Of a stretch of DNA of 64,000 bases, positions 17,005 through 56,744 are shown in pieces; the stretch's first letter is position 1; each line of letters begins with the position of its first letter. The notes under the pieces are model-generated. The model had not been told where the DNA came from and made no database searches. It saw nothing but the letters and a program-made list of their open reading frames with translations. The stretch covers positions 744,001 to 808,000 of the forward strand of contig NC_019942.1 in NCBI RefSeq assembly GCF_000327505.1. The letters are read 5' to 3'. A program made the position numbers and the translations under genes. The DNA is from Aciduliprofundum sp. MAR08-339. Lineage in GTDB: Archaea; Thermoplasmatota; Thermoplasmata; Thermoplasmatales; Aciduliprofundaceae.

Positions 17005-17754
17005 ATGGAGCAATGGGAAGAGGACGTTCAAAAATACCTTCAGATGGGGCTTTATCAGCCAGCGCTTGAACTCATAGAGGAAGTTCTGAAAAAGGGGCGG
17101 GATAAAAAGGCCCTCACCTACAAGGCCTATATATTAAGGTCCATGGACGATGACGAAGGGGCCCTTGAGATTGTGGATGAACTGCTTAAAGAGGGCGAGG
17201 ATGAGGATCTCCTGCTTTTAAAGGGAATGATTCTCTTTGATAATGAGAACTACAAAGATGCGGCCAAGTACTTCCGCAGGGTGACTGAAATGGACCCTGA
17301 AAATATAGATGCATGGTACAATCTCGCATCCTGCTATGATGCCCAGGAAAAATATGACATTTCTGAGAAGTACTACTCAAAATTGGTGGAGATCAATCCG
17401 GAGGATGCCGAGGCATGGAACAACCTCGCGGTTTCCCAGCTCTTTCAGGAGAAGTACGAGAAAGCCCTTGAATCCGCAGAGCATGCGCTCCAAATTGAAG
17501 ATGATTACGATAACGCTTGGTACAACAAGGGTCTGGCGTTACACTATCTTGAAAGGTATAAGGAGGCAATAAAAGCTTTTAAAAAATGCATAGATATTTC
17601 GGACGACCCGGATGCCTGGTACGCCATGGGTATTTCCTATGCCAATATGGATATGATTGAAGAGGCAAAGCGTGCCCTGAGGGAGGCGCTGAGAAGAAGT
17701 CCTGATGATGATGAGATTCGAGAAGCCCTAGAGGGTCTGGAGAATGGACAGTAA
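17005..17754 (+). CDS. Tetratricopeptide repeat protein
   Basis: 249 residues made almost entirely of TPR helix pairs, about six or seven 34-residue units, with canonical W-x2-L-G-x2-Y-like patterns (for example AWNNLAVSQLFQEKYEKALE and AWYNKGLALHYLERYKEAIK). No signal peptide, so a cytosolic scaffold. Its first eleven codons carry an AGGTGATG ribosome site upstream. It overlaps the following GtrA-like gene by 11 bases, so the two are probably made together. Partners are unknown. Confidence 0.88.
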   Translation: MEQWEEDVQKYLQMGLYQPALELIEEVLKKGRDKKALTYKAYILRSMDDDEGALEIVDELLKEGEDEDLLLLKGMILFDNENYKDAAKYFRRVTEMDPENIDAWYNLASCYDAQEKYDISEKYYSKLVEINPEDAEAWNNLAVSQLFQEKYEKALESAEHALQIEDDYDNAWYNKGLALHYLERYKEAIKAFKKCIDISDDPDAWYAMGISYANMDMIEEAKRALREALRRSPDDDEIREALEGLENGQ

Positions 17755-18232
17755 AAATGAATTGATCACCTTCATAAAATTTACCCTTGTGGGAATTTTA
17801 GGTGCAGGGGTTGGCTCGCTGATTATAATGGAGGCAACTCATAGATTACCTCCAGAGGCCAGTCCATACGCATTTATACTGCCTTATCTCCTGTCCGTGG
17901 AGGCCGGAATTTTGGTAACATTCTATCCCAATGATGTTTGGGTTTTCAGGAAAGAGAAATATAAACTGACCATGTGGCAGAGGTTGGTGGCATATCATAT
18001 TGCACTTTTCGGCGGTTTTGTTGTTCAGACCCTTGTGTTTGGCGTATTGTTGATTCTATCCTTACCCATTAAAATTGCCTATTTTGGTGGAGTTGGTGGT
18101 GCAGCCCTGTGGAACTATCTGGTGAGCAGGAAGGCCGTGTTCGCTGAGGAGGGAGGTAGGGATGAAAATAGCGGTATTCGGAGCAGGATCTCTGGGAAGC
18201 GTCTTGGGAGCAATACTCTCCAGAAAAAATGA
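17744..18232 (+). CDS. GtrA-like membrane protein
   Basis: 162 residues with four membrane helices. The LVGILGAGVGSLI start and the NDVWVFR and LWNYLVSRKAVF motifs are typical of GtrA/DPMS-type proteins, thought to move lipid-linked sugars across membranes or to anchor glycosyltransferases. The family's usual end (RKAVF plus a few residues) is followed here by about 28 residues that simply read through the start of the next gene in another frame, giving a 71-base overlap. Either a real overlap or a lost stop codon. A second GtrA-like gene lies at 19047. Confidence 0.82.
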   Translation: MDSKNELITFIKFTLVGILGAGVGSLIIMEATHRLPPEASPYAFILPYLLSVEAGILVTFYPNDVWVFRKEKYKLTMWQRLVAYHIALFGGFVVQTLVFGVLLILSLPIKIAYFGGVGGAALWNYLVSRKAVFAEEGGRDENSGIRSRISGKRLGSNTLQKK

Positions 18233-19010
18233 TGTTCTTCTCATAACAAGAGGAGAGCATTTAAGGGCCATACAGGAGAATGGATTGCGGGTTGAGGGCA
18301 TGGTCAATGATTTATTTCACATTGATGCACTGGACCATTACCCTGGTGGTTTTGATCTCCTCATTTTGACGGTAAAGGCCTACCAAACAGAGAGTGCGGC
18401 GGAGGAGATAAAAAAGCAGTATGATGGAGAGCCAGTGATAACATTTCAGAATGGTGTTGGTGTTGTTGATATTCTAAAAAAATATGGTTTTGATGTAATA
18501 CCTGGAGTTACGACCATGGGCGCAACCAGAACCCTGCCAGGTGTGGTTATGTATGCCGGATACGGCGATACTTTTATTGGAGAGGAAAATGGAAGGTTTA
18601 GTGAGAGAGTTATTCATTTTGCTGAAAATTTTACAGAATGTGGGTTGAGGGTTGAGGTTGTTAACGATATAATGGAAAGAAGGTGGGTTAAAGCAGCCAT
18701 AAACGCCTGTATAAATCCTTTAACCGCCATAATGCGTGTTCCCAACGGAAAACTTGCTGATAAAGAGCTTGTTGAGATAGTAAAATGCGTGGCTGATGAG
18801 TGCTCCGCAGTTCTTTCCGATATGGGCATTTATGCGGATGTGTTCTCGCTCGCCATGGATGTAATTGAAAAAACCGCTAAAAATCGGTCCAGTATGCTGC
18901 AGGATATTGAGATGGGTAGAAAGACGGAGATAGATTTTATCACCGGACCATTTATTCAGGGTATGTGCAATAAAATGCTTTACCACATGGTCAAATTTAT
19001 GGAAAAATGA
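18162..19010 (+). CDS. panE: 2-dehydropantoate 2-reductase
   Basis: 282 residues. Reduces ketopantoate to pantoate with NADPH in CoA synthesis. N-terminal Rossmann loop GAGSLGSVLG at residues 7-16, LTVKAYQT with the catalytic-region lysine, FQNGVG near residue 88, and a helical C-terminal domain with KAAINACINPLTA and the later E-x-D-x2-TG motif (EIDFITGP). It starts inside the upstream GtrA-like gene and ends 36 bases before another GtrA-like gene, an odd setting for a CoA enzyme. Confidence 0.9.
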   Translation: MKIAVFGAGSLGSVLGAILSRKNDVLLITRGEHLRAIQENGLRVEGMVNDLFHIDALDHYPGGFDLLILTVKAYQTESAAEEIKKQYDGEPVITFQNGVGVVDILKKYGFDVIPGVTTMGATRTLPGVVMYAGYGDTFIGEENGRFSERVIHFAENFTECGLRVEVVNDIMERRWVKAAINACINPLTAIMRVPNGKLADKELVEIVKCVADECSAVLSDMGIYADVFSLAMDVIEKTAKNRSSMLQDIEMGRKTEIDFITGPFIQGMCNKMLYHMVKFMEK

Positions 19011-19046: not shown

Positions 19047-19745
19047 ATGGATATTGAAGATAAGGTCAGAAAAAAACTGGAAAATTGCGATCTTGTTCTG
19101 GTTTACAGGGAGAGTATCAAGAGCAGAATCATTATGATGCTCGTTAAAACAATTTTTCCAGGGATCCAGTACAATCCCCTATCTCCTGTCTTTGGGTATC
19201 ACGGCGAGGTTTATGGCACCGAGAAGGATGAAAATCTAACAAAAATTTTGCTGGACGGGAAATTCAAAAATGTATGTGTGATTGATGAGAATGTAAAGGG
19301 AAACAAAAGGCGTGTGCGGGATTTTCTCAGGATGATGAGAGAGTATGGGGCATTTTTTGTGTTCGTAAAGTACGGTTTAACGGGAGTTTCAGGCGTTCTG
19401 ATAAACATGGTGTTTTTCTTTTTGTTCTTCAAAATTTTGGATTTTCCCGATATACCCTCATTGGTCTTGGCCATTGAATTAAGCATCATAATTACCTTTC
19501 TTATGAACAATTACTGGGTATTTTCCAGCAGGATTTACTCGCGCTCTGTCTGGTGGAGGATGGCCGCCTACCATTTCACGCTTATTATGGGCATAATCAT
19601 AAATGTGGGGACCTACTGGCTTCTCAAGACGATGGGCATACATTACATGCTCGCCGATTTTGTTGGCATAGTACTTGCAAGTTTGTGGAACTTCTATTTA
19701 ACCAACGCCCATGTGTTCTTTGCAAAGTATCAGAAACAAAAGTGA
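19047..19745 (+). CDS. GtrA-like membrane protein with extra N-terminal domain
   Basis: 232 residues. The last about 125 residues are a four-helix GtrA domain (KYGLTGVSGVLINM, NNYWVFSS, ASLWNFYLTNAHVFF). The first about 105 residues are a soluble, mixed alpha/beta region (CDLVLVYRESIKSR...) that GtrA proteins normally lack and that I do not recognise. GtrA proteins assist polyprenyl-phosphate sugar transfer; the extra domain could be a remnant or regulator of a glycosyltransferase. TATAAACC lies at about 19020, so the ATG at 19047 may be leaderless. It ends two bases before tRNA-Ser on the other strand. Confidence 0.83.
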   Translation: MDIEDKVRKKLENCDLVLVYRESIKSRIIMMLVKTIFPGIQYNPLSPVFGYHGEVYGTEKDENLTKILLDGKFKNVCVIDENVKGNKRRVRDFLRMMREYGAFFVFVKYGLTGVSGVLINMVFFFLFFKILDFPDIPSLVLAIELSIIITFLMNNYWVFSSRIYSRSVWWRMAAYHFTLIMGIIINVGTYWLLKTMGIHYMLADFVGIVLASLWNFYLTNAHVFFAKYQKQK

Positions 19746-19747
19746 TG

Positions 19748-19829
19748 CGCGGGGAGGGGGATTCGAACCCCCGCGGGCAACAGCCCAATGGCTTAGCAGG
19801 CCATCGCCGTACCGCTCGGCCATCCCCGC
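19748..19829 (-). tRNA. tRNA-Ser(GCT)
   Basis: Minus-strand cloverleaf: acceptor GCGGGGA/TCCCCGC, long variable arm typical of serine, T arm with GGTTCGAATCC, anticodon stem ATGGC/GCCAT with loop CTGCTAA giving anticodon GCT. No intron. CCA is not encoded. Confidence 0.95.
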
Positions 19830-19861
19830 CTGAGGGTAAATGTGGAATTTGGTATATTAAA

Positions 19862-20138
19862 TTATTCTTTTCTTCTTCTTGCAAGGATTCTCATCTCACT
19901 TGCATACATTCCAAAATTTAAGGCAATGTGGATGAATATCAGAGCACTCATTATAAAGGCGGTGTATGTGTATAAGAGTGAGAGCATCCCTGGTTAATCC
20001 AAAAAATGACCACGAAGTCTCCCTTGCCAGCCTTCCGCTCGGAGAGATGTAAAGACCCACACCTGTGAAAAAGACAACAAAAAATGAAATGAAGAGGAAG
20101 GTGGATGTTGTTGCCCTCGCGTATACAATTTTTCCCAT
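19862..20138 (-). pseudogene. DUF4405-like small heme-type membrane protein, frameshifted
   Basis: The start at 20138 encodes MGKIVYARATTS, a membrane helix, then TGVGLYISPSGRLA and FGLTRDALTLIHIH, the typical DUF4405 order (helix, Gly-Pro-Gly-Arg turn, GLTR, histidine). The frame then runs into unrelated sequence and stops at 19896. Removing one base at the GG pair 19961-19962 restores a good match: HAFIMSALIFIHIALNFGMY and a basic tail to a TAA at 19862. The restored protein would have about 91 residues, with two histidine-bearing helices that could hold heme as in cytochrome-b-like proteins. Either a real frameshift mutation or a sequencing error. It lies nine bases after the DUF2202 gene. 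Confidence 0.72.
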
Positions 20139-20147
20139 ACTACCACC

Positions 20148-20843
20148 TCACGGATTTTCACCGCTAATTATTCTGTCGTACTCTTCCTTGCCCAGGTACA
20201 CAGGTTGATACTCGTAGTTATACATCCTTTTCAATGTGGAAACGAACGCTCTCAGATGGTTCCCTGAGCCGTTGGTGAGGTTTGTGTAAACATATTTTAT
20301 GTCCTGATTGTCCGTTTTATTGAGCCAGTGCTGTATATCCACTATATCAAGTTCTTCAATATTGGCACCCACTATAAGTGCACTCTTTTCAGATTCGTTT
20401 ACCCTTTCCACAAGTTTCCAGTAGAGTGCCTGTATCGTTGAGTTTTTAAATACACCTTCTGGCTCGTTTTTTGCAGGATCAGTTATGTTGTACTTCTCAA
20501 GGAGCACAGAGACCATATATGTGTGAGTGCTCTCAGATTTGGCAATGTTCTTAAATATTCTCGTTCCATACTTGTGGTATGCATAAATGTACACATCATG
20601 GGCCATTTTTTCCTCTTCTCGCATGTACTGCAATCCCTGGATCTCCTCCTTGCTGAGATTCTGGTAAGGCAGGGAATATACATATTCTTTTATTGAGGTC
20701 CATTTATGCTCAGGAGTACCTCCGGAAGGATTGCTTTCCTGCGTATTCTCTGCACCAGGCTGTGAGATTACGTAGTATGCACCTGCCCCCACAGCAACTA
20801 TTGCCAGAACAATGGCAATTCCGTACATCAAAGCCTTTTTCAT
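20148..20843 (-). CDS. DUF2202 ferritin-like lipoprotein/secreted protein
   Basis: 231 residues from the ATG at 20843; a longer in-frame reading to 20918 exists, but the short start follows AGGTGATCGA and begins with a proper signal/anchor helix (residues 5-25). The soluble part has DUF2202 features: REEEKMAHDVY, KSESTHTYMV, ELDIVDIQHWL, GSGNHLRAF. These Glu/His positions resemble a four-helix, ferritin-like diiron site. A low-complexity Ser/Gly/Pro linker follows the helix. It acts outside the membrane; its role is unknown, and metal or oxygen chemistry is inferred. Co-directional and nine bases from the DUF4405-like gene. Confidence 0.82.
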   Translation of the reverse strand: MKKALMYGIAIVLAIVAVGAGAYYVISQPGAENTQESNPSGGTPEHKWTSIKEYVYSLPYQNLSKEEIQGLQYMREEEKMAHDVYIYAYHKYGTRIFKNIAKSESTHTYMVSVLLEKYNITDPAKNEPEGVFKNSTIQALYWKLVERVNESEKSALIVGANIEELDIVDIQHWLNKTDNQDIKYVYTNLTNGSGNHLRAFVSTLKRMYNYEYQPVYLGKEEYDRIISGENP

Positions 20844-20929
20844 TCGATCACCTGACAGAAAATCCAGAGGTATATATATGTCCTTTATGGTACAACAGTC
20901 GAAGAGTAGTACAATCATCGAATAATAAG

Positions 20930-21145: not shown

Positions 21146-21230
21146 GCCGGGGTTGCCGAGTGGTAAGGCGCAGGCCTGGAGAGCCTGTACTCCGTTAAGG
21201 GGTGCGAGGGTTCAAATCCCTCCCCCGGCG
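21146..21230 (+). tRNA. tRNA-Ser(GGA)
   Basis: Acceptor GCCGGGG/CCCCGGC, anticodon stem CAGGC/GCCTG with loop CTGGAGA giving GGA, long variable arm, T arm GAGGGTTCAAATCCCTC, discriminator G. No intron and no encoded CCA. It ends about 50 bases before the RFC gene. Confidence 0.95.
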
Positions 21231-54491: not shown

Positions 54492-54906
54492 GGGTAAAGA
54501 AGGTAATACTGCATAAAAATCTTATGATTTTTGGAATATTCACTTGGATATATGCTCACTGAAATATTTGCATACTTTTTCCCATACAAAAATTCTTATG
54601 TTAAGTTGAGGTAGTTTTGGTTCTTCCACAATTTTTCCCAGTACAGAATACACCCATCATAACTCTGATTTGAGATGATGCACATATGGCAGTTCTTGAT
54701 AAACCACAGTTCTCTCTCCTACCGAAACATCTTCAACAGGAATAGCATGATACCTCTTATGCGGCGGGAAACTTATGACATAATACCAGCCCCATATCCC
54801 GTTTAAAAGAAAAAAATACGATTAGAAATGTTGTTACAATCACCATCTCCCCATTCTACTCTTTGTGCCTTCGGTGATTAGAAGTCTTATTTAATAAAAA
54901 CTGCTC
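54492..54906. other. 415-base AT-rich gap with only a gene fragment
   Basis: No complete gene, RNA gene or repeat array is seen. TATA-like stretches occur near 54540 and 54895. It contains the coding-like fragment described at 54657-54818. Confidence 0.5.
54657..54818 (-). pseudogene. Coding-like fragment, no start codon
   Basis: A minus-strand frame of about 54 codons has no start, but reads like real protein (GIWGWYYVISFPPHKRYHA, EDVSVGERTVVYQELPY) and ends in TGA. It may be the tail of a decayed gene. Family not recognised. Confidence 0.25.
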
Positions 54907-55056
54907 TCATTCTTTTTCAACTTCAACCTTTTCTATTTTGACAATTTTGTTTTCTTTGAGCCATTTAACATAGATTTCTATGAATCTTAACGTGTCCTCA
55001 AAGTTACGCTTTTTTATTTCCTCCAACTCCTTCATATCTATTTCTGGAAGTTCCAT
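54907..55056 (-). CDS. Small helical protein next to the nucleotidyltransferase
   Basis: 49 residues: MELPEIDMKELEEIKKRNFE, then LRFIEIYVKWLKENKIVKIEK, charged and helical. AAGGAGGT lies before the ATG, with good spacing. Similar short acidic-helical proteins occur beside nucleotidyltransferase genes in other archaea, likely as toxin-antitoxin-like partners; this is from memory. It is 25 bases downstream of the truncated nucleotidyltransferase. Confidence 0.6.
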   Translation of the reverse strand: MELPEIDMKELEEIKKRNFEDTLRFIEIYVKWLKENKIVKIEKVEVEKE

Positions 55057-55081: not shown

Positions 55082-55471
55082 CTATATTAAATTTTCAATT
55101 TCACTTTTTGGAAATTTCATTTCGACATTTGGTATTATTTTATTTTTCAATGAGAATCTCAGAGCATATCCTGAAATCAAATAGTCTTGATAGGCATTTT
55201 TAGGATTATCTGTTATTATGCACCAAAAATCTTTATTCAATTCTTTCCACATATCTAGGAATTTCTCATACTCAAATCTCTCCACGATCACATCAGTATC
55301 TTCAGATAAACGGCTTCTGCCAAAAAGTATTGCCACATAGACAGATACAACAACATATTTTATTCCAAGTTTATTTAAAATTTTTGTGAATTGCAGAATG
55401 AGATCATCAAGTTCTCCGCGTTCCTTGGTGAAGGAATAACGATAACCTCCGAGAACCACATTTACATTCAT
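55082..55471 (-). CDS. Nucleotidyltransferase-like protein, probably truncated and inactive
   Basis: 129 residues. The archaeal nucleotidyltransferase pattern LGIKYVVVS-x-YVAILFGRSRLSEDTDVIVE is clear, but the usual Gly of the SG loop is Val (residue 44), and the protein stops after MKFPKSEIENLI where relatives that I recall carry about 60 more residues. Asp58 and Asp60 of the metal motif remain. Likely a damaged member of a minimal nucleotidyltransferase/partner module. Confidence 0.65.
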   Translation of the reverse strand: MNVNVVLGGYRYSFTKERGELDDLILQFTKILNKLGIKYVVVSVYVAILFGRSRLSEDTDVIVERFEYEKFLDMWKELNKDFWCIITDNPKNAYQDYLISGYALRFSLKNKIIPNVEMKFPKSEIENLI

Positions 55472-56383: not shown

Positions 56384-56560
56384 TCACCCCCATACGAGAT
56401 CTCCAAAACCACCGGTGTTTACAGTTCCATGCACATTCCACAATCCAGCCATATTGGTATCTCCACAATATGCCATAACAGTGAAGATTATAGTGTGGGA
56501 TTGGATGTGGGAATAGGAAATAATCAAGCAAGAGTCAGGATAATTCCTTTTCCTACTCAT
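56384..56560 (-). CDS. Small possible ORF upstream of the extracytoplasmic protein
   Basis: 58 residues (MSRKRNYPDSCLII..., ...WNVHGTVNTGGFGDLVWG), with AGGAGG ten bases before the ATG. It ends four bases before the next ATG, and the TGA overlaps that gene's ribosome site. No similarity recognised. Could be a real coupled gene or a remnant. The region 56561-56744 after it holds nothing that I recognise. Confidence 0.35.
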   Translation of the reverse strand: MSRKRNYPDSCLIISYSHIQSHTIIFTVMAYCGDTNMAGLWNVHGTVNTGGFGDLVWG

Positions 56561-56744
56561 TCACATTTTTCCTCCTGTATTTTTCCAAACTCTTAGATGA
56601 ATTTAAATATAAAAATCTTTTCTGTATGTTGTTCTGCCGCATAAATGGAGAGTTCCATGGATGTATTCTCAAATTTGCGAGAAGATGGAAATTCACCAAA
56701 TGTAAGGAGATGGCTTGTCCTCTCTCAACCCTCTTAAGCTCGCA

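Follow-up and report, generated by a model that had tools for sequence, protein, structure and literature searches.

The window (the whole stretch of DNA analysed, 64,000 bases) contains a DUF4405 gene whose reading frame is broken, with the two parts of the domain lying in two overlapping frames of the reverse strand (Table 1). With a probability that we put at about 0.6, this is an ordinary frameshifted gene of a known family, disrupted by a true small indel mutation and involving no new mechanism.

Table 1. Coordinates of the DUF4405 locus and its neighbours; positions are those of the window unless stated otherwise.
Feature	Position	Strand	Remarks
Window	744001-808000 (genome)		single-contig archaeal genome, 1,437,090 bases
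First-frame ORF, 80 aa	19896-20138	−	first helix and first conserved histidine of DUF4405, then unrelated tail
Second-frame segment, including stop codon	19862-19993	−	remaining DUF4405: second helix, second conserved histidine
Frame-change stretch	~19958-19996	−	from breakpoint scan and MAFFT gap
DUF2202 gene	20148-20918	−	PF09968, 168.4 bits
tRNA-Ser (gct)	19747-19829	−	ARAGORN; immediately downstream of the DUF4405 locus

The DUF4405 domain is divided between two frames

The 80-residue ORF matches the Pfam profile of DUF4405 (PF14358) with 37.3 bits, above the gathering cut-off of 26.7 and in agreement with the family assignment of the earlier note, and the match covers profile positions 2-48 of 66 only. 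What remains of the domain past position 48 is in the other frame, and of the two conserved histidines, which stand at a fixed spacing, only the first is in the frame of the 80-residue product. Against a profile built from four relatives (G011, G010, G004 and G003), this ORF scores 54.7 bits and its tail −1.7 bits. The second frame is open from 19865 to 19993 (−), where an ORF of 41 aa starts at an ATG (19862-19987), and contains FIMSALIFIHIALNFGMY; the 41-residue piece has no Pfam match by itself and reaches 36.4 bits against the four-relative profile (36.6 bits for the entire open segment), which bears out the proposal that a second histidine-bearing helix lies in the other frame. In a six-frame scan of the window, comprising 1836 segments of at least 20 codons, the two pieces were the sole clear matches (54.7 and 36.6 bits, with the third at 6.9), and the frame break, likewise proposed earlier, is real.

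The frames share an overlap of 95 bases (19899-19993), across which homology is continuous. By itself an open shifted frame is weaker evidence, because a +1 frame with 43 stop-free codons was present at 52 of 1380 places sampled in long ORFs; nor do codon statistics alone show the break, because the coding-potential ranking picked neither piece and preferred an antisense ORF of 51 aa (19842-19997, +). At the level of sequence comparison, the break is demonstrated by homology and not by openness of the frame.

Relatives keep the domain in one frame

Across the taxonomic family, 7 of 18 genomes have PF14358 matches over the cut-off, eight altogether, of which seven reach profile position 65 or 66 and that of the window ends at 48. 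A class-level search yielded matches at 1e-6 in 8/150 genomes, the window genome and that of a congener (G003) among them. The best matches to the window copy come from other genera (48%, 46% and 46% identity), and the G003 copy is 38% identical to that of the window over the N-terminal part. All ten aligned relatives carry the domain to its very end in a single frame, and none is shortened like the window ORF. The comparison with intact copies that the earlier note had suggested thus upholds the break; the contrary observation that it had named, relatives with an intact protein that ends at 19896, was made in none of the ten. H66, H80, G70 and N84 (numbering of the intact relative L012) are invariant throughout the alignment, as is the His-x3-Gly spacing between the first histidine and the glycine. 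Left unaligned were three larger proteins (L039-L041, with open frames of 459, 274 and 245 aa) and family matches below the cut-off, and, since the start of the G003 copy is not in the domain frame, its row begins only at the first ATG/GTG/TTG codon of that frame, which is a TTG. Among the three congeners searched, G003 alone exceeds the cut-off for DUF4405; the match in G002 lies below it and concerns another frame, of 162 codons, and that in G001 is weak and contains a stop.

Size and position of the frame change

The same frame results whether one base was gained or two were lost. In a breakpoint scan of 86 read-through versions (43 places with two shifts each), the best −2 reading scored 97.3 bits versus 92.0 for the best +1 reading with the four-relative profile, and 97.4 versus 90.3 bits with a profile of seven relatives, a preference of 5.3 and 7.1 bits that rests on one residue of spacing. 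The 12 best readings with each profile all break between codons 49 and 60, and all carry a net shift of −2. Moreover, a DNA alignment made with MAFFT (five rows only, the window and four relatives) places a two-base internal gap in the window at the upstream edge of the 19958-19996 stretch. A net loss of two bases fits these sequences better than a gain of one and is the most likely event.

The best-scoring break falls in the codon of the first conserved histidine (19968-19970), within ACACATACAC; with a break at the upstream place, the position of this histidine would read tyrosine. From the loop start up to the first histidine the spacing agrees with that of the relatives; the three residues between this histidine and Gly/Ala-Phe are kept only in the −2 version. 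Removal of one G is disfavoured because it brings the conserved histidine one residue too near Gly/Ala-Phe. One extra G at 19961-19962, which the earlier note had proposed as the event, is accordingly probably wrong, being 5-7 bits worse than the two-base loss and shortening an invariant spacing, and the place of the change is defined only to about 19958-19996. Instead of a homopolymer the site has a short AC repeat, and no run of more than two equal bases adjoins the likely place.

The copy of a congener also seems out of frame

In the G003 genome (1,486,778 bases), an ATG that sits behind a strong ribosome site and follows GGAGGTGA opens the DUF4405 copy (L019:1442-1746) with seven codons followed by TGA (MADKKKN, then stop). 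The domain is in the −1 frame relative to this ATG, and the first ATG/GTG/TTG of that frame is a TTG 56 bases downstream of it; homology to the relatives extends upstream of the TTG, which suggests that the natural start is not in the domain frame. The junction carries an A-rich run, AAAAAGAAAAAC, and the fold of the 60 bases downstream is not unusual, being matched by 29 of 300 mononucleotide shuffles. As far as these features can be read, the frame of the G003 copy seems interrupted as well, close to the start and with another place and shift than in the window, which argues against one conserved programmed shift; this break may be an error, or translation may begin at a rare start codon. 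With two breaks of different place and size in a single genus, repeated decay is a better fit than a programmed shift that is conserved.

Predicted structure and haem context of the intact protein

As modelled, the intact relative L012 (mean pLDDT 81.4, pTM 0.62) has helices at residues 10-40 and 59-101, with both conserved histidines in the second, most of which the 80-residue product of the window would lose. Compared with PDB structures, the model has no match at E ≤0.001; the top one, cytochrome b6, has an E of 1.2, a likeness that is suggestive at most, and the one PDB match obtained by sequence (E 0.63) is meaningless. Binding of haem b is described for a bacterial DUF4405 protein and for FezC, the latter modelled as a homodimer (PMC11334425, cited from part of the paper). 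The most likely role of intact copies is that of a small cytochrome, perhaps a dimer, which transfers electrons in the membrane.

Neither of two haem-synthesis families, PF00490 (ALAD) and PF17805 (siroheme decarboxylase), has a match in any of ten genomes (G000-G006 and G010-G012), with controls positive in 11/14 and 4/14. From these searches the lineage seems unable to make haem, and a cytochrome would, given the absence of both families, depend on outside haem. A lack of haem synthesis is only a possible reason for the loss and by itself leaves it unexplained, because the genomes with intact DUF4405 copies (G004, G005, G010, G011 and G012) likewise lack the same two families.

Genomic neighbourhood

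The stop codon of the DUF2202 gene is separated by 9 bases from the start ATG of the DUF4405 gene at 20138 on the same strand. The two genes do not form a conserved pair: among the ten DUF2202 loci found in the genome contigs, some with flanks shortened by contig ends, only L002 has a DUF4405-like gene in its flanks, G012 being a second view of that locus (both contigs of 15215) and the G005 locus (L035) having none that was seen. At the L002 locus, a 120-aa ORF (L027:1100-1462) without a Pfam match at E 0.1 lies between DUF2202 and the DUF4405-like gene. In the paper collection searched, nothing on DUF2202 was found.

The DUF2202-DUF4405 pair of the window is flanked by the tRNA-Ser gene listed in Table 1 and by a tRNA-Ser (gga) at 21146-21230 (+), about 1.3 kb apart on opposite strands and the only tRNAs that ARAGORN found in the window. 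Two membrane proteins of the GtrA family (PF04138) are encoded at 17744-18232 and 19047-19745 (+), with an ORF at 18162-19010 between them. Elsewhere in the window, the longest gaps between chosen ORFs are 54492-54906 and 56413-56744, near which the short ORFs 54907-55056 and 55082-55471 have no Pfam match.

Explanations of the frame break

We suggest that a small indel put the DUF4405 gene, encoding a small two-helix membrane protein of the haem-b cytochrome type, out of frame, and that this mutation is true and recent. Its likeliest form is slippage in the short AC-rich repeat that covers the codon of the first conserved histidine, with a net loss of two bases. The product would end at residue 80, lacking both the second helix and the second histidine, and so could not make the usual haem site, a loss that would be tolerated through relaxed selection in a lineage seemingly unable to make haem. 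Besides the break, both pieces are clean and uninterrupted, which is expected for a very recent mutation and equally for an error of sequencing or assembly, in which case the living strain has an intact gene. Such an error is possible, if rather doubtful: in addition to the good conservation of both otherwise uninterrupted halves (54.7 and 36.6 bits), it is favoured by the part cited here of a frame-transition survey (PMC3711429), in which BLAST-validated singletons are expected to be errors more than genuine indels, frame breaks near the 3′ end being more likely indels. Against it stand the want of any run of more than two equal bases beside the likely place, the state of the genome (one contig, rated 99.42% complete) and the window genes, otherwise long and closely packed (64 ORFs chosen by the coding-potential ranking, 33 with at least 250 codons). 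Ten ORFs picked as possibly split or odd also included no pair with a common Pfam family, 3/10 having no Pfam match, as a weak control within the window and not a genome-wide count. Of the three causes that the earlier note had left side by side, true mutation is thus the most likely, error possible and a programmed shift unlikely.

It is improbable that the 80-residue product is a working shortened protein, either alone or with a 41-residue piece started separately at the ATG at 19987; the first helix and first histidine are kept and the downstream piece has an ATG of its own, but the second conserved histidine and second helix are absent from the 80-residue product, no aligned relative (0/10) is shortened likewise, and no well-spaced ribosome site was seen by eye before that ATG. 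Programmed recoding, with a ribosome or RNA polymerase slipping by +1 or −2 to give the full protein, would account for homology across the 95-base overlap and for the G003 copy being out of frame too, and has an archaeal precedent in the −1 programmed frameshifting documented for fucA1 of Saccharolobus (PMC8211752, which in the part cited here counts few cellular recoding cases documented in archaea). It is nevertheless highly improbable, since the shift needed is +1/−2 in the window versus −1 in G003, at different places, and none in the other relatives: the frame change is not conserved, all ten aligned relatives having the domain in one frame and G003 its break elsewhere and of another size. 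No in-frame slippery X-XXY-YYZ heptamer was seen by eye in ACTCTTATACACATACACCGCCTTTATAATGAG, and folds are ordinary both in G003 and in the window (121 bases around the site, −24.7 kcal/mol, z −0.71, 45/200 shuffles as stable); the CGC codon adjoining the break occurs 6.33 times per 1000 codons in 33 long ORFs, ranking third among the six Arg codons, and is not very rare. An exact search of the site in viral contigs gave 0 matches. Least likely of all is that the genus keeps the gene out of frame on purpose, slippage in short repeats (the AC repeat in the window and the A-rich run before the stop codon in G003) supplying a cytochrome on demand in an archaeon without haem synthesis.

The main consequence is for annotation, in which a frame-disrupted DUF4405 gene should be entered at this locus in place of an intact 80-aa protein; beyond this the import is small. 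If two related species truly both carry broken copies, they would be a small example of membrane cytochrome decay in a group apparently without haem synthesis; a bearing on archaeal recoding would arise only if protein evidence showed a full-length product.

Comparison with known systems

Like fucA1 of Saccharolobus solfataricus, the window locus is an archaeal gene in two overlapping frames; in the part of PMC8211752 cited, fucA1 combines a −1 shift with a slippery heptamer, A-AAA-AAT, and a putative stem-loop; neither element was found at the window locus, which also requires a shift other than −1. The locus resembles DUF4405/FezC proteins in its over-cut-off Pfam match and conserved histidines, and its relatives are modelled as two helices; for the bacterial DUF4405 protein, the cited part of PMC11334425 gives a model of six transmembrane helices and four histidines, and the archaeal relatives have about 80-105 residues and two conserved histidines. 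Unlike these proteins, the window copy is divided over two frames. From the frameshifted genes surveyed with GeneTack, as far as the cited part of PMC3711429 describes them, it shows no notable difference: with no recoding signal seen, it shares with their indel genes and pseudogenes the arrangement of one family in two overlapping frames.
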